Shown here: positions 1,402-59,410 of the stretch, piece by piece
Layout of the letters: every line of letters starts with the position of its first letter
Numbering within the stretch: the stretch's first letter is position 1
From: Agapetus fuscipes
Taxonomy: Eukaryota > Arthropoda > Insecta > Trichoptera > Glossosomatidae
Assembly: GCA_951799405.1 (NCBI GenBank)
Contig: OX637353.1
Location: 3,100,001-3,164,000, forward strand
DNA: 64,000 nt
Direction: 5' to 3'
The notes under the pieces: model-generated
Told to the model about the DNA's origin: nothing
Database searches by the model: none
The model's input: the letters and a program-made list of their open reading frames with translations, nothing else
Program-made: the position numbers and the translations under genes

Positions 1402-1594
1402 AAAAAAAAAACATATTTTGAAGACATCTTTGACCTGAAACTTTTATTATTTATTGTTATTAAAATAAAAATATGCTGGTCAAGAATTATTTATTTCAGA
1501 CGCGGTTAGTAAAAAATAAATAAGACAACCTTTGCTAACTGTAAACCATTGCACCCTTGAAAAAGAGCAGCGAAGCTTTTCTGAAAGCACATTA

Positions 1595-1999
1595 CAAAGT
1601 TTATAGCAGTAGGTCCAAGCACCGAACCGTGCACAGCCCAGTATAACTGCTGCAGCGACGCAAAGTTTATAGCAGTAGGTCCAAGCACCGAACCGTGCAC
1701 AGCCCAGTATAACTGCTGCAGCGACGCAAAGTTTATAGCAGTAGGTCCAAGCACCGAACCGTGCACAGCCCAGTATAACTGCTGCAGCGACGCAAAGTTT
1801 ATAGCAGTAGGTCCAAGCACCGAACCGTGCACAGCCCAGTATAACTGCTGCAGCGACGCAAAGTTTATAGCAGTAGGTCCAAGCACCGAACCGTGCACAG
1901 CCCAGTATAACTGCTGCAGCGACGCAAAGTTTATAGCAGTAGGTCCAAGCACCGAACCGTGCACAGCCCAGTATAACTGCTGCAGCGACGCAAAGTTTA
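1595..1999. repeat. 66-bp minisatellite, six units
   Basis: Six near-identical 66-bp units beginning 'caaagtttatagcagtagg', plus a partial unit. Because 66 is divisible by three, the minus strand stays open as 22-residue repeats, but nothing else supports translation. The duplicate at 18139-18279 has only two units. Confidence 0.95.
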
Positions 2000-3444
2000 G
2001 AAATTTTCCCATTTAGTTAATCTGGTTCACCATTTTATTAAAGGCATTCCCATGGTAGCATTGCTGTAACTAACACGCCCATTGTTTTGTTTTCGTTTCC
2101 ATTGTTGAGGAATTCGCTCACTTGTGCTGTTCACAATAATTAGCCTATACTTACGTTAGTGCTTGTCAAACTATTTTTCACATAATAATTTTAATGATGT
2201 CATACGAAAAAACTCCCATATTTGTTAAATTCTAGTTATTATGTATTTTCATTGGAAGCTCCCTCACCATGCGCTTATTATAGGTATCTCTACACAAGTG
2301 CGTGTCCCCTGCAGGTACCTATATTTACGCAAGGAAATTGGAACCGCAAATAAACACTTTTCAAAAGCCTTGGCGCAATGCTTGGCGTCTTTCTTTGAGT
2401 CAGGATCCGAATAAACCTATAGTTTTTTCAGTTTGAATGTGATTCAGAAACGTATAGGTAGGTGTAATGTACTTATCGTATTTCTGTGAAACTGAAGCTT
2501 ATTTTTGGCATCGAAGTGAGCATCTTTCCTAAAGAAAGTAGGTAATGGAGAGTAATAGGTCATAGGATGAGTATTGAGCGTTTTATTGTCCCACAGTTTA
2601 CCAAGCACTGCATTAGCGTGTATCGCAACCAAAACATTTCCAATAAGGCGAGAAAGTTCTGCAACGGAGACAAAAACCCACGCGCAACTTGATGCTCGCT
2701 ATTCACTAACGTTTTCATCTGAAACATTCGCAGGTGTAGGAACCAAACAACAGTTAATTAACGTAGCAATGCGTTATTCTTCTGAAAACAGATGGCTTTT
2801 ACCAACTTACCATGATTTTTCTAAATGCCAATAGTTTTAAAAAAAAATCGTTAGAATGCAAAAGTTATTGATCAATTTAAAATAAATATGTAGTGACCTA
2901 TTTACCCAGTGAAAAGGGATTCAAGGGATCGTAGATCTCTCAAGATTTCCTAAACTCATATATACCTACATAAATACGACAAGCCCACAGAACTGGAGGA
3001 TTCAAAAGCACATACATGCTTCTATCCAGGTTTAACGGTTTCCACACATCAATAATTCCACACTCAGTAACTTTAATTTGAACATATAAAAACACTTTGC
3101 AAGATTCTTATAAGTTTATTACAAGGTGCTTATAGCGTTAAAACTTTAGGCCATTAGTAGGGAATAAACTTCTCCTTGACTTTTAAACGAATTCTTCCCT
3201 GCAATATCTAAATTCTAAACGATCAGCCTTCCTTCCTCCAGGAAGATAAGCGGATTTAAGATAAATACTTAGAAGGGGTGGACTGCAACTGCTATGCAAT
3301 GTCAACGACCACTTGTTTTTTACTAGGTGTTCTGCACTGTCCACATAAGCGCATGCACTGGGTAAAAGCAAATACATTCCAGAATAAATAATTTGCCCTT
3401 TACCTAAAAAAAGGGTCAATTATTATGGTCCAGCAAAAAAATCC

Positions 3445-28952: not shown

Positions 28953-31603
28953 CTATAACCCAATGAGTCTGCTCCCCAGGTTGTTTAGCTTGGACGATGC
29001 ACTCCTCGTGATTTCTTTGAAAGTGTCAAAAGGCAACTGTAACAAAAATTAAATATAAAGTAAATTAATCTCTTCAAAATATAGGATGAAAATGTCCATC
29101 TGATAATGACAATAAAAAGATACATCCATAAAAGCAAAAAGTAAACTTAAGTAGGCAACATCTAAGAAATCAACAGAAACTTGGATCCTGACATAGTATA
29201 AGAAACGGAGTGTTGGAGGAATGTGCTAGCAGACCCATGAACGGCTAACCTGACAAAATCTGTATATTCCTACAGCTGGAAGTAGTAGTTCATTTAGCAG
29301 CTCTTCGTCAAAGATGTACCCACATTGTATTCTTTGAGCGTATTTCACTGACAGCTCCTGTAACTTCTTGCCTACATTATCCCTGGAGGAGTCACATATG
29401 GCGATTTGGGATCTATTTATTTTTACCGGCCAACCACTTCAGTTGAAGAGGAGGTTTCTTTGGAGGAGGATCTTGGGCTTGGAATAAACACCGAAACGGG
29501 AAATCATTTCTGACACCCTCGGTGGGGATGAAACCCTTGCTTTTGGCATGGAATGAAACATTCTACCAGCTGAGCTATTAACCGGACTTTTTACGAGCTT
29601 GGCCGTAGCTACAAAGCGCCAATGGTCAAACAAGATCCAGTTGCTGTAAGGCTGGATGAACCTTTGGTGACCAGTCTTTAAGGTAAGTATATCATTTTTT
29701 CAACCCAGCGAGGCTTAAAATTAATTCTATGTAAATGAACTGTACAAATGAAAGAGATTTCGAAACTCAGTGCAGGGGCTGCTGGTAAAGGATCGTCCTA
29801 GCTCTGAGAGCAGCTATATATCCTTGGCTGTTAAGATTTACAACTGGAGAGAATGCAGTGATGGAGTTACTCACATTGATGGCATTGCTGAGGAAGCCCA
29901 TGATGCTCTCGGAGCCTGTCACCAACACTCTGCCCACAGACTCAAACTTATCTCCAGTGTTGCCATACTTCTCCTCTTCTGTGATGCCATCTACAATGGG
30001 CTTAGGCTGAAAATCAAAATTAAGTAATTAAGTACTTGCTAGGATTATTTTAAGCATTTTTTTGTTATTTTTTATTCTTTAAATGTAAGTTGTGTAATGA
30101 ATCAAACTGAATTGAATTTTGTAAGTATTAGATGTGCCACTGACAGCTGTAAAATGATAGAAATAAACACTATTAGATGAAATACTTTACCTGGAATATA
30201 TTGGCAAAGAAAGCTCCCAGGTTTTCTTTCACAGATGATTTCTTGCTTCCCAAGTCCTCGTAGTCTAAAGACGCTGACTCTATTTTCCTGGGACGGTCTT
30301 TGAAATATTTAGCAGGACCAATCTGAAAATAGTATTCAAACATATTGACAGCTGTAAATTGTAATGTACCAAAAAGGACAGCTATTTAATTTGATGTGTT
30401 TTGTTAATGCAGACATTTAATTTTAGCTGAAATCATGAAACATTTGGACTAGTATTTACTTTTTCTTGTACTTTCATGCCCATCGATTGCACATGCCCAT
30501 TCTTGGACCGGTCCGTAGTCCAGTGGCAGCACTTCGGACTCGTAAATGGAAGGTTGTGGATTCGGATCCCGGCGGAGCACAAAAAATATACCATTTATAT
30601 TTCGAATGTGCTCTTCGCTGAGTTGAAAAATTCATAAACCTTTACCAAAGACCGGTCACTGAAAGGTCCATCCAACCTTACAACAACTGGGTCTTGCTTG
30701 AGAATTGGCGCTTTCTACAGCACCGTCCAAGCTCGCAGAGGGCTCTTGAGGTGTGATACACACAAAAACAGCGCTCACCAAATAAATCAGCCTAATTTTT
30801 TTTTTTTTTTAATCGAGAATAATTGCAAGTTATTCAAGTTATTATTTTGTCTATGGTATTATGACAGACTTCTTTGGTTTGAAACTTGAGCCTGTAACTC
30901 AGAAATCTCTACTTATTTAACTATCAACTAGCCACACATACCTACAGCACAAGTATTTTTTTTAAATAATTTTCATTTTAAATACTAAAAAATACAGACA
31001 CAATGAAAATGAAAACTTAAGTTTTACCGCTAATGATCTCGCTTGATCCACTAGTCCGCTAACAGCCTCTGACTTGGCTTGCACGCCGTGAGCAATTCCA
31101 TTAGTGGCAGTCTGCACAAGCGCAGATCCCTGAGCGGCCAAATCTCCAACCACCTCCATCTTCTGCTTGGCCAGACTTCCCACGGCTTCCACTTGCCTGG
31201 TCACTATGTTACTTGCTGCTTCCACTTGCTTGTTCACCACTTCACTGGCCGCTGCCACTTGTTTATTCACCACATCACTAACAGCTTCTACTTGCTCATT
31301 CAACAAACCAGAAGCTGAGTTCAACCCGCTCTTAGCAGTTTCAGATATAGTCTCATACCCAGTCTTGAATGTTTCAGTCACTGCAGAATATCCTTCGTTT
31401 AATAAGCCACCGATCGTTGCTAAATTAGATTCAACCAGGTTATTTATTTGTGTTGCTTTTTGTACTGCTGCGCTGTTTATGGTTTCTATTTTTCCTTTTA
31501 TTTGTGACGGGTCTAATCCAAATCCTACTTTGGAAGGTGCTTCAGTTGGTGCAGCATTGCAACCATGTAGGGCAAGAAGCAGAAGGGGAAAGATCAACTT
31601 CAT
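28953..31603 (-). CDS. Secreted protein with 11-residue amphipathic repeats, 307 residues, four exons
   Basis: I do not recognise a named family. Coding exons in order are 31603-31028, 30322-30191, 30006-29875 and 29036-28953. All junctions are GT-AG and phase 0, and the stop is TAG. A 'ttgttttcag' acceptor at 31619-31620 lies 15 bases before the ATG, implying a 5' UTR intron. Residues 1-17 (MKLIFPLLLLALHGCNA) are a clear signal peptide, so the product is probably exported. Residues 105-159 are five consecutive 11-mers of the type VEAVSDVVNKQ / VAAASEVVNKQ. The 11-residue periodicity is that of amphipathic helices in LEA-like and apolipoprotein-like proteins. Exons 2 and 3 are both 132 bp and each ends in a hydrophobic segment (GAFFANIFQ, GFLSNAIN). 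The last exon starts LPFDTFKEIT. SINEs sit in introns 1 and 3. A lipid- or surface-associated role is only a guess. Confidence 0.85.
29365..29720 (-). repeat. SINE family A plus family B fragment (intron 3 of the secreted-protein gene)
   Basis: A family A copy (about 29365-29588, head at the right) is joined to a family B fragment (29589-29720, 'caagatccagttgctgtaag', 'tttcaacccagcgagg'). It has the same arrangement as 10146-10460. Confidence 0.65.
30505..30790 (+). repeat. SINE family B (intron 1 of the secreted-protein gene)
   Basis: Head 'ggaccggtccgtagtccagt' and box B 'ggttgtggattcggatccc', followed by the usual body. It ends in a region ('tgtgatacacacaaaaacag') shared with 7738 and 59120. 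Confidence 0.75.
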
Positions 31604-32012: not shown

Positions 32013-33451
32013 AATAAAGTACGGAAAAGCTCACACAATTGGCGAAGAGCTGTTGTTACCTGCAGCGAAAGACATGGTTACTTGTATGTTGGGTGAAACG
32101 TCAGCTAAAAAGCTAGATCTGATATCACTGTCCAATAATACCGTGCAGCGAAGGATCGAAAGTATGGCATCAGATGTTAAAAATAAAATCATCAATCATG
32201 TCAAACATAGCGATTTCTTTTCGATACAACTCGATGAGAGTACAGATGTAATGAACTACACTCAACTTGTGGTTTACGTGCGGTATATATTATGTACATG
32301 AAAATAATGCACTCAAGGAAGATTATTTATTCTGTGAGGCGTTATCAACACGAACTACTGCGGATGAAATTTTCAATAAACTGAGTGGATTCTTTGCCGA
32401 AAATGGGCTTGATCGGATGAAATGTGTTGGCTTCTGCTCTGATGGCGCTCGAGCTATGACAGAAAGATTCGGAGGTGTAGCCACAAAAGTAAAATCTGTT
32501 GCCAAAAATTGCACTTTCATGCATTGCAGTATACACAGACAAGCGCTAGCAACAAAACGTATGCCTGAACAATTTAAACATGTTCTCCAAGACGCCATCA
32601 AGGTGGTAAATTTTATGAAATCTCGGGCTCTTAACTCTCGTTTATTTTCTGAACTGTGTTCTGAAATGGGAAGTGAATATATTCAGTTGCTGCTACATAC
32701 AGAGGTGAGATGGCTTTCGCGAGGAAAAATGCTGAGCAGATTATTCGAGTTACGTTGTGAGGTGCAGCTATTTCTGATGGGGACCGATTTTGAATTACGC
32801 GATCGACTGACTGACGAACACTGGATTATATAATTGGCTTACTTATCAGATATTTTTAATCGCATCAACGACTTAAATCTAAGTTTGCAAGGTAAAACTA
32901 CAAATCGATTTTCAGTAAATTACAAAATAAAAGCATTTATCAAGAATTTTCAAATGATTAAAAAGAGTGTGTCGAATGAGAACCTGGCATCTTTTCCTAA
33001 TTTCGAAAATTTTGTAACTGAAAATGAACTTACAGTGAGTGAAAATGTAATCAATAACATCAAAAATCACAGCCAAATAATCGTTGAAACATTTGAAGAA
33101 TACTTTAAAGAAGATTATTCAGAGTTCAGTTGGATAAGGAACCCATTCGTTTCGGATCTGGATAATGTTCGTGCAAATTTAAATGTAAGTGAAAAGGAAT
33201 CTCTGATAGAACTATCTTGCGATGGAGGCTTGCAAACGGAATTCAACAATCTGGAGTTGTGTGAATTTTTGCTAAAAGTAAAAAATGAATATCCATCGCT
33301 TTCAGGAAAAGCATTACTGTTTTTAATTCCATTAACTACCACGTATCTCTGTGAGAGCGGATTTTCTGCTATGTTGATAATAAAAAACATATATCGTAGT
33401 AAGCTAAACATAGACCCTAATTTGTGCTTAAAATTAAGTACCTACAACTGA
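32013..33451 (+). pseudogene. hAT transposase (ZBED/Charlie-like), broken
   Basis: hAT transposases cut and paste the element through a D-D-E centre in an RNase H-like fold. The N-terminal BED zinc finger is missing and readable similarity starts near 32013. Recognisable parts are 'IQLDESTDVMNYTQLVVYVR' (first Asp region), 'CSDGARAMTERFGGV', the C..H segment 'MHCSIHRQALA', 'TEVRWLSRGKMLSRLFELR', and the C-terminal 'YLCESGFSAM' with the Glu and dimerisation region. It is inactivated by a frameshift near 32270-32300 and an in-frame TAA at 32831-32833. It cannot make a working enzyme. Confidence 0.88.
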
Positions 33452-52309: not shown

Positions 52310-55300
52310 TTATCTCAACTTTGACAGCGACTCTTGTAGTGACGTCAAAATGCCGATCGGGATCTGCAAGAAGAAGAAAAAGAAGGTTTATTTAGACGCA
52401 ACATTTTATTTATTCCATAGATACAGTACCTACTAGTGATTTATTCTGAGATCTAATTTATGAATATTTTCTAAAGTGGAATGGCCATTTAGTAGACGGA
52501 AGAAAAGTCTCATATTCATGTGAAATTTTAATTAATTTTAACTTTAAATTAATTTTAAAATTAACGTCATTGCCACTCCTGTTTCAGAGAATCGCGGCAA
52601 GAGTTGCCCAGCACCTATAAGTTCACTTGAGGCATGCAGCTTGGATAATAACGAACTTGGACCTGTTTGCTTGTGGGCGTGAATTAATTGTTAATATTAT
52701 TTATCTTTGCAACTTACACTACAAGTAACAACTTTACAGTTTTGTTGTAAAATTATGGATGTGTCATCCTCAAAACAAAGCTTTTTATATTTTTTTATAA
52801 AATCAGAAAAGCCAAAATTAGAATATTGGTGTAAATTGTTTTATAAATTCGTCTACTTACTGCCAGGGCTTTTCTGATTTGACTTTGGTCTCTAACAGTT
52901 TCGTCGCTATCCTTGTACTGCAATTAAAGAAAAAAACATTGAAAGGCATTTGAATAGTTGGCTGCTCACTGCTGTTGACATAACATAGTAATTTTCAAAT
53001 CTAAAATGATGAATCAAAAGAAAATCAAGAAACACCTCATCATACACATTTGTTCCTAGAGTGTAATTATTCTCTCTGTGTTGCATAATGTTGCAACAAA
53101 GTTGGATTTCAGTAATCCAACTGGTAAGTGTTTGGATAGGGTTCTTATTGGTTCTTATCCAACAATGCCAATATTAGTTACTCCATAGCGACCCGGCCAG
53201 GTATTATTTTGTGTGATTTGTATTGTGGGATTTTGTGCCTTGCATTGCGAACACAAGTTCAAAGTGCATTTTTATTTGCAACTTCATAATAATATTTAGA
53301 TGTATGTATAATAAATAATGGGTACATTATATTTTAATGTACCTAATGCTGAGGAGAAGGGAAATGTGAAAATTAAAAAGGAACATGTTCGTGAAGATGC
53401 TGTAAGCTGTACCTAAATACCTAATTGATTTCAAATTCAAATATTGGAATTTTAGAATTTATTCCAATATCTAGAAGTACCTACATAACGTTAGCTTAAA
53501 AACGGAAGTTCTGTGAGTTAGGGGACCATGGACGGAAGCGACACAAAATAGAGTCCTGGAGGATTGTGATGCGGGAGGCCATGAACCTTTAGGGCTTGAG
53601 AGCCGGAAAGTAAGCAAGGTATGCTTTATAATAGTATTATTGCGTCCTTGGGTATTATCGATGACGATTAATTATATTACCCTGTCTCCTTGAGCAGCAG
53701 GGAACGCCGTGACTTGGGTATTATCGATGACGATTAAGTATATTACCCTGTCTCCTTGAGCAGCAGGGAACGCCGTGACTTGGGTATTATCGATGACGAT
53801 TAAGTATTGTTACGTTTTTCCTGGGTTCTTTTAATTAAAACACAAGTTTAACACAAGTTAGCCATACAGTTTATTTACACAGACTTTCTTACAATAGATT
53901 TATTTTTAACAGACTTATTCTAACAGATTTATTTTAACACACTTATTTATTTCGTACAGATTACATTTATTTTAAACCTTATTGGTCGCCCTGGCAACTA
54001 GATACTCCTCTGTGTGAGTGCTTCGAAGACTGACTCGCTTCAGCCCATTGTCGCCCTTCTTATAGCGGAACCTAGGGGCCATTCCAGCCTGCCCTAGAAA
54101 CTTCCACTACCACAGTTGTATAGACGATTCTGGACATATTTATTTCATGAAGAGTCCATTTCCTACCTACATACACACCTTACAATTACAATCGTCTGGG
54201 CCAGAACATTCTCTCAAAACACACGTACACCAATAAACATCTACCAGTGTATTTCGTTACATTATCCCCCCCTTAGACTGTTCCGCCCCGGAACAGTCTT
54301 TTCTTTAAGAAGGTACGGGCAGTTTGACCCACAGTTGCATCCAGTGGTCAGGAAAAATGACGTTCCACGGAATTTTCCCCTTAGGGTTTTGCCCGTCATT
54401 GCTGGCTGGTGTGGGGGGGGGTGCTTTCCTCTTGGCGGCCGGCATGGGCGCCTTTCCTTGGCTGGGGGCACCGCTTTGCGTCCCCGGGCGGCCACCGCTC
54501 CTAGGCCCCGCTTGCTCGCCGGCGTCAAAGGATCAGAATCCTTGGTCGTCGGAGCCGCTCTCCTGCTCGGAAGCGAAGTTCTCACTCTCGCTCTCGTCCT
54601 CTGACTCGCTGAGTTGCTTCCTGCCGCGCCATGCTTGGGTCGTCGCTTCTGCTTGCTCTGCTTGGCTGAGCCCCTGCGGGCGGGGGCGCGGCGCCTGCGG
54701 GAGGGAGCGCCCCCCTCCCCCACTGACGGGTCAAAGTCAGAGTCCGCCTCCTGTCCGGAGCCACTCGGGTTGTACGAGCCATCTGAATCCCCTAATTCAT
54801 CCCTGCTGACTTTGGGTCCCCGCACTTTGGTTTCCGGATCTGTTTCATACTCCTCGTTAGAGTAACCTCTCTTGACAATAGCAGCAGCGGACCTTCTGGG
54901 CCTGCCTCCCGTGGCCTCGCCGCGGTCAGTCACCGGCCTCTCCTTCATCAGCCCCCTGGCGTGCGAGGAGACCTGCTTTGGCAGCAGCAGGAAGCCCACC
55001 ACCCTGCTGACCAGCTCCGTGGGCGCGCCCCTCTTGTCCAAGCCCAGCTTCTCGCACAGCGTCCGCAGCTGCTTGGGCTCCAGCTTCTGCACCTCCTCCA
55101 GCTTGGCCTTGTGCTCAGGCGTGTCCTTCTCAAACTCGTAGCCCTTGAACTTCTTTTTGTTGCGCTTGATGAGGTTCGTGCGGCACAATTGATTGTACCG
55201 GAACTTGAGGTCCTCCATCTTGAACCTGGAGATGGCCACCTCCACGTCGGGGATGTGGTCGATGGGGATGCCCCGGCCCGCGGGCACGGGCACCAGCGGC

Positions 55301-56968
55301 TCCACGGCCTTCTTCTTCTTGGGAGCCTTCTCCACGGCCTCCTCCGCCTTCTTCTTGGGCGCGGGCTTCTTCTTCACACTGTTGGCCTTCTTGGCCTTGC
55401 CCTTCTTGTCCTTGGCGTCCTCATCCTCCTCCTTGGCGTCCGTCTCCTCCTTCGCATCCTTGTCAGCCTTCACCTCGGCCGAGTCACTCTTGCCGTTTTC
55501 AGCCGACTTGACATCATCTTTGTCATCTTTGCTGTCAGCTGCGTCCTCAGCCTTGAGCTGGCCGTTGTTTTTGGCCTTCAGGTCTCCCTTCCCCAACTTC
55601 TGAGATGACTCATCCTCAGTTGACATATCGGCCTTTTTGTCATCCTGATTATCACTTAATTTTACACTATCAGTGTCCACCGACATTTTTAAGGCTAGGT
55701 TTTTAGCCATCTCCTCCTTCCAACCAGCTAGGTCTTCCCTCAAGCTCTTGAAGTTGGCAGCCATCTTTGTTTTAAACTCTTCCACGGCTCGCTCGCGGTC
55801 CCCTCCAGACGCCATGACAAAATATGCCGGGTCTTCGCCTGACTGTTCCAAGGCCTCCATGAGGCGTGCCTGTAAGGCCGCCTTCCCTCCTGAGGTCTCC
55901 AGGTCCCTCTCCAGAAGCTCATTCTTAAGCTCATAGACTTTGAGGTCCTTGATGTTCACCTTAGCCATTTTTTATTTTAACAAACTTCAAAACAAAAATA
56001 TTTGCAAATTTATTTAATACGGGTTATGAGTTTTATATATAAAGTTATTTTAAATACGTACTTTAGCAAAATAATAATTTATCTAATTATACTGACGGTA
56101 GGTAGGTACCGCCTTTTAATATTTATTTTTAAATTTCAAATAATGATATTAGATAATGATTATTTACTTTGCTTCGTCATCGGCTAATGAGTATTTACAA
56201 ACACTAACGCAATATTATTAACACGTTATCTATCCACACTTCAATCAAATTTTTAGCGGGTAACCACACGATCGTTTTTAATTCAAGTTTAATCAGTTTT
56301 ATTTAAAACTTTTTTTTTTTATTCATCAGTTTTTTTATGTTGTCCACATATATTTTTCAAAAGTCTCAAGCACAGTTTTTTTGGTACTTGGTTTTAAACT
56401 TCACACCGACACCATTGTTACGTTTTTCCTGGGTTCTTTTAATTAAAACACAAGTTTAACACAAGTTAGCCATACAGTTTATTTACACAGACTTTCTTAC
56501 AATAGATTTATTTTTAACAGACTTATTCTAACAGATTTATTTTAACACACTTATTTATTTCGTACAGATTACATTTATTTTAAACCTTATTGGTCGCCCT
56601 GGCAACTAGATACTCCTCTGTGTGAGTGCTTCGAAGACTGACTCGCTTCAGCCCATTGTCGCCCTTCTTATAGCGGAACCTAGGGGCCATTCCAGCCTGC
56701 CCTAGAAACTTCCACTACCACAGTTGTATAGACGATTCTGGACATATTTATTTCATGAAGAGTCCATTTCCTACCTACATACACACCTTACAATTACAAT
56801 CGTCTGGGCCAGAACATTCTCTCAAAACACACGTACACCAATAAACATCTACCAGTGTATTTCGTTACAGTATATTACCCTGTCTCCTTGAGCAGCAGGG
56901 AACGCCGTGACTTGAGTGGCGATCAGGAGCGCCCCCAGTACCAACAACATCACGCACAGCTTATTCAT
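52310..56968 (-). CDS. Small secreted peptide, 66 residues, three exons, LTR element in intron 1
   Basis: Coding exons are 56968-56879, 52917-52861 and 52363-52310. Introns are GT-AG and phase 0, ending in TAA. A 'tttgcag' acceptor at 56977-56978 lies 8 bases before the ATG, implying a 5' UTR intron. Residues 1-22 (MNKLCVMLLVLGALLIATQV + TA) form a signal peptide. The mature part, FPAAQGDR + YKDSDETVRDQSQIRKALA + IPIGILTSLQESLSKLR, is ~44 residues, acidic then amphipathic, with no cysteine pairs. The 36-bp exon 1 end plus 30 bp of intron is present three times in tandem, giving three equivalent 5' splice sites in one frame. A 3.06-kb LTR element is inserted 9 bases into the intron after the first donor. 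Size and plan suggest a secreted peptide. The function is unknown. Confidence 0.75.
52565..52745 (+). repeat. Family C repeat
   Basis: 'gccactcctgtttcagagaa' to 'atctttgcaacttacac'. Located in intron 2. Confidence 0.55.
53500..53625 (+). pseudogene. LINE ORF C-terminal scrap
   Basis: Translates as KIESWRIVMREAMNL, resembling the 'W..IVREA' end of LINE ORFs. Located in intron 1 of the secreted-peptide gene. Confidence 0.35.
53650..53807 (-). repeat. 66-bp tandem duplication of an exon end and 5' splice site
   Basis: Two full 66-bp units, each carrying a 36-bp copy of the end of exon 1 of the secreted-peptide gene (minus strand caagtcacggcg... ending gacagg) and 30 bp of its intron with the donor gtaatata. 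Donors are at 53680 and 53746. The original unit is at 56870-56914, displaced by the LTR element. The unit adds 22 codons in frame without a stop, except the last, where gtaatataa introduces one. Confidence 0.9.
53808..54261 (-). repeat. 3' LTR
   Basis: 454 bp. In minus-strand sense it has GCTATAAGAAGG as a TATA-like element, a TCAGTC initiator-like motif about 25 bases on, and several AATAAA signals downstream. Confidence 0.92.
54262..54274 (-). promoter_or_regulatory. Polypurine tract
   Basis: AAGGGGGGGATAA on the minus strand, immediately before the 3' LTR. It primes plus-strand DNA synthesis in LTR elements. It also encodes the last codons and the stop of the ORF. Confidence 0.8.
54262..55968 (-). 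CDS. SAP-domain / DEK-like chromatin protein inside the LTR element, 568 residues
   Basis: One intronless ORF, much more GC-rich than its surroundings. Residues 4-40 form a SAP motif (DLKVYELKNELLERDLETSG), and 55-95 look like a coiled coil. A Met at 115 starts an acidic/Lys-rich stretch to ~220. Residues ~225-335 resemble the DEK core: 'IPIDHIPDVE', 'KRNKKKFKGYEFEKDTPEH', 'LRTLCEKLGLDKRG', 'ELVSRVVGFLLLPK'. DEK binds structured DNA and remodels chromatin. A GRPRR-containing basic/Ser tail follows, while the usual DEK C-terminal domain is not seen. The last ~45 residues, with GCNCGSNCPYL and ending GRNSLRGG, are encoded up to and through the polypurine tract, so they are retroelement sequence. 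The N-terminal SAP/coiled-coil part may be gag-derived, which would make this a gag-host-tail fusion. The ATG at 55968 is the first of the frame. A nuclear role is likely, and expression from the LTR is inferred. Confidence 0.88.
   Translation of the reverse strand: MAKVNIKDLKVYELKNELLERDLETSGGKAALQARLMEALEQSGEDPAYFVMASGGDRERAVEEFKTKMAANFKSLREDLAGWKEEMAKNLALKMSVDTDSVKLSDNQDDKKADMSTEDESSQKLGKGDLKAKNNGQLKAEDAADSKDDKDDVKSAENGKSDSAEVKADKDAKEETDAKEEDEDAKDKKGKAKKANSVKKKPAPKKKAEEAVEKAPKKKKAVEPLVPVPAGRGIPIDHIPDVEVAISRFKMEDLKFRYNQLCRTNLIKRNKKKFKGYEFEKDTPEHKAKLEEVQKLEPKQLRTLCEKLGLDKRGAPTELVSRVVGFLLLPKQVSSHARGLMKERPVTDRGEATGGRPRRSAAAIVKRGYSNEEYETDPETKVRGPKVSRDELGDSDGSYNPSGSGQEADSDFDPSVGEGGAPSRRRRAPARRGSAKQSKQKRRPKHGAAGSNSASQRTRARVRTSLPSRRAAPTTKDSDPLTPASKRGLGAVAARGRKAVPPAKERRPCRPPRGKHPPPHQPAMTGKTLRGKFRGTSFFLTTGCNCGSNCPYLLKEKTVPGRNSLRGG
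56399..56414 (-). promoter_or_regulatory. Primer-binding site
   Basis: TGGTGTCGGTGTGAAG begins one base after the 5' LTR. A TGG start complements a tRNA CCA end. The tRNA cannot be named from sequence alone. Confidence 0.7.
56416..56869 (-). repeat. 5' LTR
   Basis: 454 bp, identical by eye to 53808-54261. Transcription of the captured gene would start here. Confidence 0.92.
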
Positions 56969-57184
56969 ACTCGTACCTGCAAATATACATAACAAAACTA
57001 CAGACTTTATTTTCAAAAATATGCCGCAATTTATAAATAAAAAGGGACAGTTAAATTATTACACAAAATTTCAGCATGGACTTGTAACTTGTTCCGCACG
57101 GATATTCAAGTTGTTTTCAGTGGGAAAACGTCAAACAACTGAATAGCTACTGTACTCAGTTGACTTAGCTAGAGACTAAGCAGG

Positions 57185-58848: not shown

Positions 58849-58892
58849 TGGCTCATATTATATGCAATCTGCGATCATATTGTGTCATCCTA

Positions 58893-59068
58893 ATGGGGCT
58901 TCCACACGCTTGCCAACCCATCACAAGTCAAGCGCACAGTGTGTCGTCTAGAACATGCTAGCTGGACAAAATTTTGTCTAATGGACTAATTTTGTCCAGC
59001 TAGCATGTTCTAGACGACACACTGTGCGCTTGACTTGTGATGGGTTGGCAAGCGTGTGGAAGCCCCAT
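58893..59068. repeat. Perfect foldback element, 81-bp arms
   Basis: The left arm 58893-58973 and right arm 58988-59068 are inverted copies with no mismatch that I can see, around a 14-base loop. They start ATGGGGCTTCCACACGCTTG. No mismatches implies recent origin or ongoing homogenisation. Confidence 0.92.
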
Positions 59069-59119
59069 AAGGCGCCTACAAGAGTTCATTTCAAATCATG
59101 GAAATATTATAATAATATT

Positions 59120-59410
59120 GTTGAGATGATTTATTTGGTGAGCGCTGTTTTTGTGTGTATCACACCTCAAGATCCCTCTGTGAGCTTAGTCGTCGCTGTA
59201 GAAAGTACCGATTCTCAAGCAAGACCCAGTTACTGTAAGGCTGGATGGACCTTTAGTGACCGGTCTTTGGTAAAGGTTTGGAATTTTTCACCCTGCGAAG
59301 TGCAGGGTTTGAGAATATAAATGGTACATTTTTTGTACTCCGCCGGGATTCGAACCCATTTCCTTCCATTTACAAGTCAAAAGTGTTAACCACTAGACTA
59401 CGGACCGGTC
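59120..59410 (-). repeat. SINE family B
   Basis: Reverse-oriented, with the head at the right ('actagactacggaccggtcc') and box B 'gggattcgaaccc'. Confidence 0.75.

Follow-up and report, generated by a model that had tools for sequence, protein, structure and literature searches.

In the window, that is, the whole stretch of 64,000 nucleotides that was analysed, we found a structurally complete LTR element whose only long open reading frame (ORF) is a chimera (Table 1). The ORF begins with a SAP/coiled-coil part, continues with DEK sequence from the apparent start of that protein into its C-terminal half, and closes with sequence abutting the polypurine tract. Very probably, we are dealing with an LTR retrotransposon that is non-autonomous and took up the spliced mRNA of a host DEK gene by transduction. 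Its cargo is homologous to a cellular gene and not to element genes, which is what marks an LTR-transduced host gene. The original prediction had proposed such a capture, and two moth proteins bear it out: similarity to a Scirpophaga protein sets in at residue 95 of the ORF, that to Eumeta DEK covers the core and beyond, and both continue in a shifted frame.

Table 1. Anatomy of the LTR element and of its chimeric ORF (positions of the window)
Feature	Position	Strand	Basis
Complete LTR element, 3,062 bp	53808-56869	-	LTR pair, target-site duplication (TSD), primer-binding-site (PBS)-like motif, polypurine tract (PPT)
TSD GTAT (left)	53804-53807		Empty site equals adjacent 66-bp repeat copy
3' LTR, 454 bp	53808-54261	-	Identical to 5' LTR
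Polypurine tract	54262-54276	-	Sequence; last bases double as ORF stop
Short hairpin, two perfect 10-bp arms, 5-nt loop	54275-54299	-	Sequence and self-match
Leader, 447 bp, between 5' LTR and ORF	55969-56415	-	Base composition, frame stops
PBS-like motif TGGTGTCGGTGTGAAG	56399-56414	-	Sequence, position
5' LTR, 454 bp; TATAAG at LTR position 198, six AATAAA	56416-56869	-	LTR alignment
TSD GTAT (right)	56870-56873		Empty-site comparison
Chimeric ORF, 568 codons	54262-55968	-	ORF listing
Gag-like N-terminus, residues 1-94: SAP domain and predicted long helix	55687-55968	-	SAP match, protein P0003, helix prediction
In-frame DEK-derived part, residues 95 to ~443	54637-55686	-	Alignments with PDB and moth proteins
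DEK-derived sequence out of the ORF frame (DEK frame +3, one stop)	54374-54636	-	tblastn, shuffles
Probable element-derived 3' tail, ~residues 532-568, boundary approximate	54262-54373	-	Position; DEK similarity ends near 54374

The two LTRs differ at 0 of 454 positions and, read in element sense, run from TG to CA. Because they are identical, the insertion is recent. The element sits in a 66-bp repeat array of host exon-like sequence. When the element and one GTAT were cut out, the rebuilt empty site formed a 66-bp unit with 0/66 mismatches to the repeat at 53713-53778 and a single mismatch to the unit at 53647-53712. Since the rebuilt unit is the same as the intact neighbouring repeat, there is no doubt about either the insertion or its 4-bp duplication. 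The polypurine tract (AAGGGGGGGATAA) directly abuts the 3' LTR and holds the stop codon of the ORF, which is the last codon before that LTR. Two identical 454-bp LTRs, a gtat target duplication and a polypurine tract that forms the last codons of the ORF had all been predicted, and each was recovered. A primer-binding site had also been predicted: a PBS-like motif (TGGTGTCGGTGTGAAG) starts 1 base past the 5' LTR, with the PBS-like TGGTGTCGG in the expected place beside this LTR; ARAGORN (bacterial settings) detected no tRNA in the window. The leader has a GC content of 25% and contains stops in all three forward frames. The hairpin listed in Table 1, directly upstream of the polypurine tract, is a possible packaging or priming signal. 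Compared with the rest of the window, the element matched only itself, all other matches being 59 bp or shorter.

The sequence on either side of the insertion (53647-53807 and 56870-56970, minus strand) has a host exon-like start, MNKLCVMLLVLGALLIATQVTAFPAAQGDRVI, with the 66-bp (22-codon) tandem repeat. This repeat comprises three units, one of which is split by the element, and the last unit carries a stop. The whole may represent a signal-peptide exon together with the start of an intron.

Several other features of the window were recorded. The k-mer TACCTAC is found 34 times and GTAGGTA 27 times, whereas base composition predicts 4.3 and 3.5 occurrences. Such an excess is typical of Lepidoptera and, taken with the moth DEK hits, hints at a moth or butterfly as host, without proving it. 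At 58889-59072, two 85-nt arms that are 99% complementary lie 14 nt apart; we read this inverted repeat as a fold-back element or a hairpin precursor. At 59330-59410, a tRNA-like box (gggattcgaaccc) was seen by eye in a SINE-looking stretch, in which ARAGORN (bacterial settings) called no tRNA. Two adjacent ORFs at 32267-33451 (plus strand), the second with a hAT dimerisation domain (E 2e-4), are probably what is left of a hAT transposase, or else a domesticated relative. A 213-residue, secreted-looking protein with helical repeats is encoded at 30962-31603 (minus strand); its apolipoprotein match is weak (E 3e-4) and below Pfam's cut-off. The 168-residue ORF at 1506-2012 (minus strand) consists largely of tandem repeats of INFASLQQLYWAVHGSVLGPTA.

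A single ORF of 568 codons without pol had been described for the element, and this description holds. No other element-sense ORF of at least 80 codons is present, and a domain scan of the ORF frame detected neither pol nor any other retroelement domain at E values up to 10. The protease, reverse transcriptase, RNase H and integrase of an autonomous Ty3/gypsy or BEL element are thus missing from the ORF. Relatives of the whole ORF were sought in the viral_contigs collection, where nine pattern matches were obtained and none was confirmed by tblastn.

The centre of the ORF had been likened to the DEK core, and our searches agree. Residues 229-333 match the SAP-type core of human DEK (PDB 2jx3) with an E value of 1.4e-11, and a human DEK match across residues 170-346 reached 4.2e-12 (both phmmer, PDB). 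Among 7,995 scored database proteins, two passed an E value of 0.001 (2.4e-61 and 1.2e-59). Both are moth proteins with a DEK_C domain, namely an unnamed protein of Scirpophaga incertulas and Eumeta DEK, and together with human DEK they form the basis of all DEK comparisons reported here. A search with residues 226-420 returned only P0002 among 2,458 candidates. DEK also ranked first in the PDB sequence search and in a fold search. The AlphaFold2 model of residues 1-420 had a mean pLDDT of 52, rising to 72-88 for blocks of ten residues between 281 and 330; with this low-confidence model, all five fold matches of E <1 were DEK, the best at 0.017 and none below 0.001.

At residue 95, the ORF has a methionine that lines up with the apparent DEK start (MSVDTDSVKLSDNQDDKK in the ORF, MSGDTDKAKISDNQDEDKK in the Scirpophaga protein). 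From there the two sequences run start to start, MSVDTD..KLSDNQDDKK..STEDESSQ in the ORF against MSGDTD..KISDNQDEDKK..STEDESSQ in Scirpophaga. This match involves the Scirpophaga protein alone, whose gene model extends upstream of the methionine, and the Eumeta model does not include the stretch. We infer that the methionine at residue 95 corresponds to the DEK initiator. It is followed, in this order and up to about residue 443, by a shortened acidic region, the core, which has lost 4 residues relative to DEK, and a conserved post-core motif. No intron interrupts residues 95-443. The DEK_C domain, present in both moth DEKs, is absent from the ORF at E values up to 10.

It is barely conceivable that no host gene was captured and that an ordinary gag makes up the DEK-like middle. 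Gag and DEK are each basic, bind nucleic acids and contain low-complexity stretches. However, the alignment with moth DEK is specific, including the non-repetitive core and the motif GGRPRRSAA...RGYS.EEYETDP.TKVRGPK, the best hits in PDB sequence and fold searches were DEK, and no gag domain was detected in the ORF. An ordinary gag without cellular relatives, which the original prediction had named as its refutation, is accordingly disfavoured by the moth and human matches.

Near residue 443, the DEK similarity shifts frame; it then crosses one stop and ends near position 54374, before DEK_C. In tblastn searches with low-complexity filter and composition adjustment off, the out-of-frame match (frame +3) had an E value of 3e-10 with one moth protein and 6e-7 with the other. 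This match lies in low-complexity sequence. It was compared with shuffles of the ORF from residue 424 onward. The frame +3 score was reached by 0/500 full shuffles for either moth protein, and by 2/500 and 23/500 ten-residue block shuffles, respectively. For the same stretch in the ORF's own frame, the corresponding numbers were 56/500 and 2/500 full shuffles and 242/500 and 67/500 block shuffles. The last ~37 codons are not DEK-like, and no relative of them was found; from their position beside the polypurine tract, they are the probable 3' end of the element. A 17-base DNA pattern from the side of this tract had no match in viral_contigs. One correction applies to the retroelement end that had been claimed for the ORF: the tail fits by its position, but most of the last ~120 residues are, according to these alignments, out-of-frame DEK. 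The onset of DEK similarity at residue 95, the frame switch near residue 443 and the lack of DEK_C go beyond the original prediction.

A gag origin had been suggested for the N-terminal part, and here the outcome was mixed. Residues 6-41 form a SAP domain (E 5.6e-10, domain search), and the model predicts a helix at 58-102, mostly within residues 1-94. The single match among 196 candidates was P0003 (E 9.4e-7, 59% identity over 57% of 95 residues), a metagenomic, 349-residue protein of a 1.3-kb JGI contig. It consists of a SAP domain, a helix of ~180 residues (a long coiled coil) and a helical stretch with KPPQFDGTSSWNNYLMQFE...ALRGQATDVLQTL, which by motif recognition we take to resemble Ty3-type gag. 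The claim thus gained one SAP/coiled-coil relative but no gag label, as Pfam, PDB sequence and Foldseek searches returned no gag match for P0003. A Pao retrotransposon peptidase hit in P0003 (E 0.1) was far below the cut-off, fell in the coiled coil and is not meaningful. In viral_contigs, tblastn confirmed 0 of 3 pattern matches for residues 1-94, 0 of 13 for P0003 and 0 of 38 for a 64-residue piece of it; in genome_contigs (bacteria, archaea), residues 1-94 gave 56 and the P0003 piece 319 pattern matches, again with none confirmed.

We regard it as supported, albeit not proven, that residues 1-94 are the N-terminus of the element's own gag. Very unlikely, in our estimation, is a start of other origin, with the element having captured a host SAP-DEK fusion or a SAP-domain gene. 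The SAP domain is widespread among cellular proteins, its human representatives do match the ORF, although weakly (E 0.035 and 0.085, PDB), and the gag identity of P0003 lacks Pfam or fold support. Against this stand the composition of P0003, the only match, with SAP domain, long coiled coil and a gag-like stretch at its end, and the finding that Pfam detects no SAP domain in either moth DEK. Moreover, residue 95 coincides with the apparent DEK start, as expected for a fusion at the 5' end of DEK.

Over residues 226-420 (193 columns), the ORF shares 59-60% identity with the moth DEKs, compared with 84% between the moths, and the donor may therefore not have been a typical moth DEK. In these columns, 56 differences are specific to the ORF and 8 and 9 to the individual moths. 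Fast evolution inside the element, as these counts might imply, is not required by a human-rooted quartet, in which the branches measured 0.385 for the ORF and 0.373/0.323 for the moths; the branch ratio ranged from 0.37 to 12.4 (5-95% of 40 bootstrap replicates). Tajima counts were 10 vs 7 and 15 vs 8, and the ORF agreed with human DEK against the common moth residue at 4 of 105 sites. The human-rooted tree does not distinguish fast evolution from a deep-branching donor. Had all 56 differences arisen neutrally, residues 226-420 should have acquired 2.5 stops (P of none 0.08), and residues 95-430 would, at this rate, have acquired 4.7 (P 0.009). As part of the differences trace to the donor or to the moths, the missing stops are only suggestive of selection on the ORF. 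Sites conserved with human DEK had changed in 10 of 35 cases and other sites in 23 of 53, which is not a significant difference (Fisher P 0.18).

On balance, we favour the view that capture preceded the present insertion by at least one replication cycle. The cargo has undergone a frameshift, is interrupted by a stop in the DEK frame and lacks 4 codons of the core, yet the LTRs are identical; capture is for this reason probably the older event. The loss of frame, which is not expected of a functional parental DEK, is accounted for either in this way, the chimera having replicated at least one more time, or by a damaged parental paralogue, and the cargo losses might already have been present in a degenerate paralogue of this kind. 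The latter possibility belongs to a reading that shares the capture itself and that we consider possible, though clearly the less probable one: capture and insertion were one event of LTR-mediated retroposition, the resulting chimeric retrocopy has never moved since, and the DEK sequence in it is a passenger whose source, a DEK paralogue, had diverged or was partly broken beforehand. The identity of the LTRs agrees with one recent event, and the quartet branches call for no acceleration. Third-position GC (GC3) reaches 0.95 in the core, as against 0.73 for the acidic part, 0.68 for the post-core part and 0.65 for the gag-like part; total GC is 0.37 in both LTR and window and 0.25 in the leader. 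The high core value is a coding signature that favours the capture as such, and it also speaks against prolonged neutral decay once the gene had been captured. Template-switch chimeric retrocopies are, moreover, described in Drosophila and a moth in the available text of PMC5408686 and PMC9674220. A single event, however, requires that frameshift, DEK-frame stop and core deletion all arose in the parent or within one cycle.

For the preferred reading, a transduced DEK mRNA, we propose the following course, which is modelled on the structure of the element and on published cases of trans-mobilisation and template switching. RNA of an autonomous relative and DEK mRNA would have been co-packaged. 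Reverse transcriptase would then have switched template twice, just upstream of the DEK ATG and again before the DEK_C region, thereby replacing the remaining gag and all of pol. Two such switches fit better than read-through, because the DEK piece starts at about the ATG, ends within the coding region and has element sequence on both sides. The chimera keeps LTRs, PBS-like motif, leader and polypurine tract, so it would be transcribed from its LTR. As pol is absent, proteins are needed in trans, and movement would depend on those of the autonomous relative.

SAP (gag-type) and DEK core families bind DNA or chromatin. As a first guess, the predicted product may tether the RNA or the particle of the element to chromatin; the null expectation is that the DEK cargo may be a passenger without benefit to the element. 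It seems improbable to us that the element belongs to a multi-copy family whose members have been replicating for a long time with a working Gag(SAP)-DEK, a host chromatin-binding protein then being a functional part of a retrotransposon. In that case, Gag(SAP)-DEK could, for instance, anchor particles or RNA on host chromatin, direct integration, or protect the element from silencing. A protein of chromatin would plausibly serve an element that has to enter chromatin and persist there. As the element is young and its ends are intact, source gene, switch points, copy number and expression should be readable from the host genome. With such a cargo, one can test whether chromatin factors of the host are put to use by insect retroelements or just travel with them.

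In the gag-onc fusions of acute transforming retroviruses, a gag start is followed by a host coding middle that replaces pol and by a viral 3' end, and these viruses depend on a helper. The element described here resembles them in layout, with gag-like start, host middle in place of pol, probable element 3' end and a predicted need for helper functions; it differs in being an insect endogenous element without env. With the DEK chromatin protein, the ORF shares the core, the acidic region and the protein start, whereas DEK_C is absent, the C-terminal part is frameshifted, the acidic region is shortened and a SAP start has been added.

In plants, LTR elements are well known to capture host genes, and animal cases are documented. 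For rice and sorghum, 672 and 1,343 captured genes, respectively, are given in the available part of PMC3726574. Maize Bs1, as portrayed in the accessible text of PMC13317346 and PMC5408686, is likewise an LTR element with host-gene segments in a chimeric ORF; it is a plant element with pieces of three different genes, whereas a single animal chromatin gene is involved here. A template-switch model for joining host mRNA to an LTR element is described in the part of PMC5408686 that was available, citing Tan et al. (2016), and is applied to a moth in the corresponding part of PMC9674220. As far as these citing papers convey it, LTR-mediated retroposition in metazoans (Tan et al., 2016) has in common with our element that host mRNA is joined by template switching, leaving an intronless partial copy. 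In the present case, by contrast, LTRs, TSD, PBS-like motif and polypurine tract are all present, the cargo is DEK in frame with a gag-like start, and further replication is likely, though unproven. The Pxyfem retrocopies of Masculinizer in Plutella xylostella provide a parallel, in that a lepidopteran gene fragment is fused to gag pieces of LTR elements, which is attributed to template switching (PMC9674220, available text). According to the same text, Pxyfem occurs in multiple W-linked copies in which no LTRs have been identified, and it acts through small RNAs, whereas here a complete element with a long ORF is found. Among the matches listed in our search of open-licence literature by title and start of abstract, there was no report of DEK in an LTR element. 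Nor did the literature matches listed, a scope outside which Tan et al. (2016) lies, include a second insect LTR element that is structurally complete and in which a host gene is joined to a gag-like start. Distinctive here are the unusual cargo, DEK, and the complete element anatomy.
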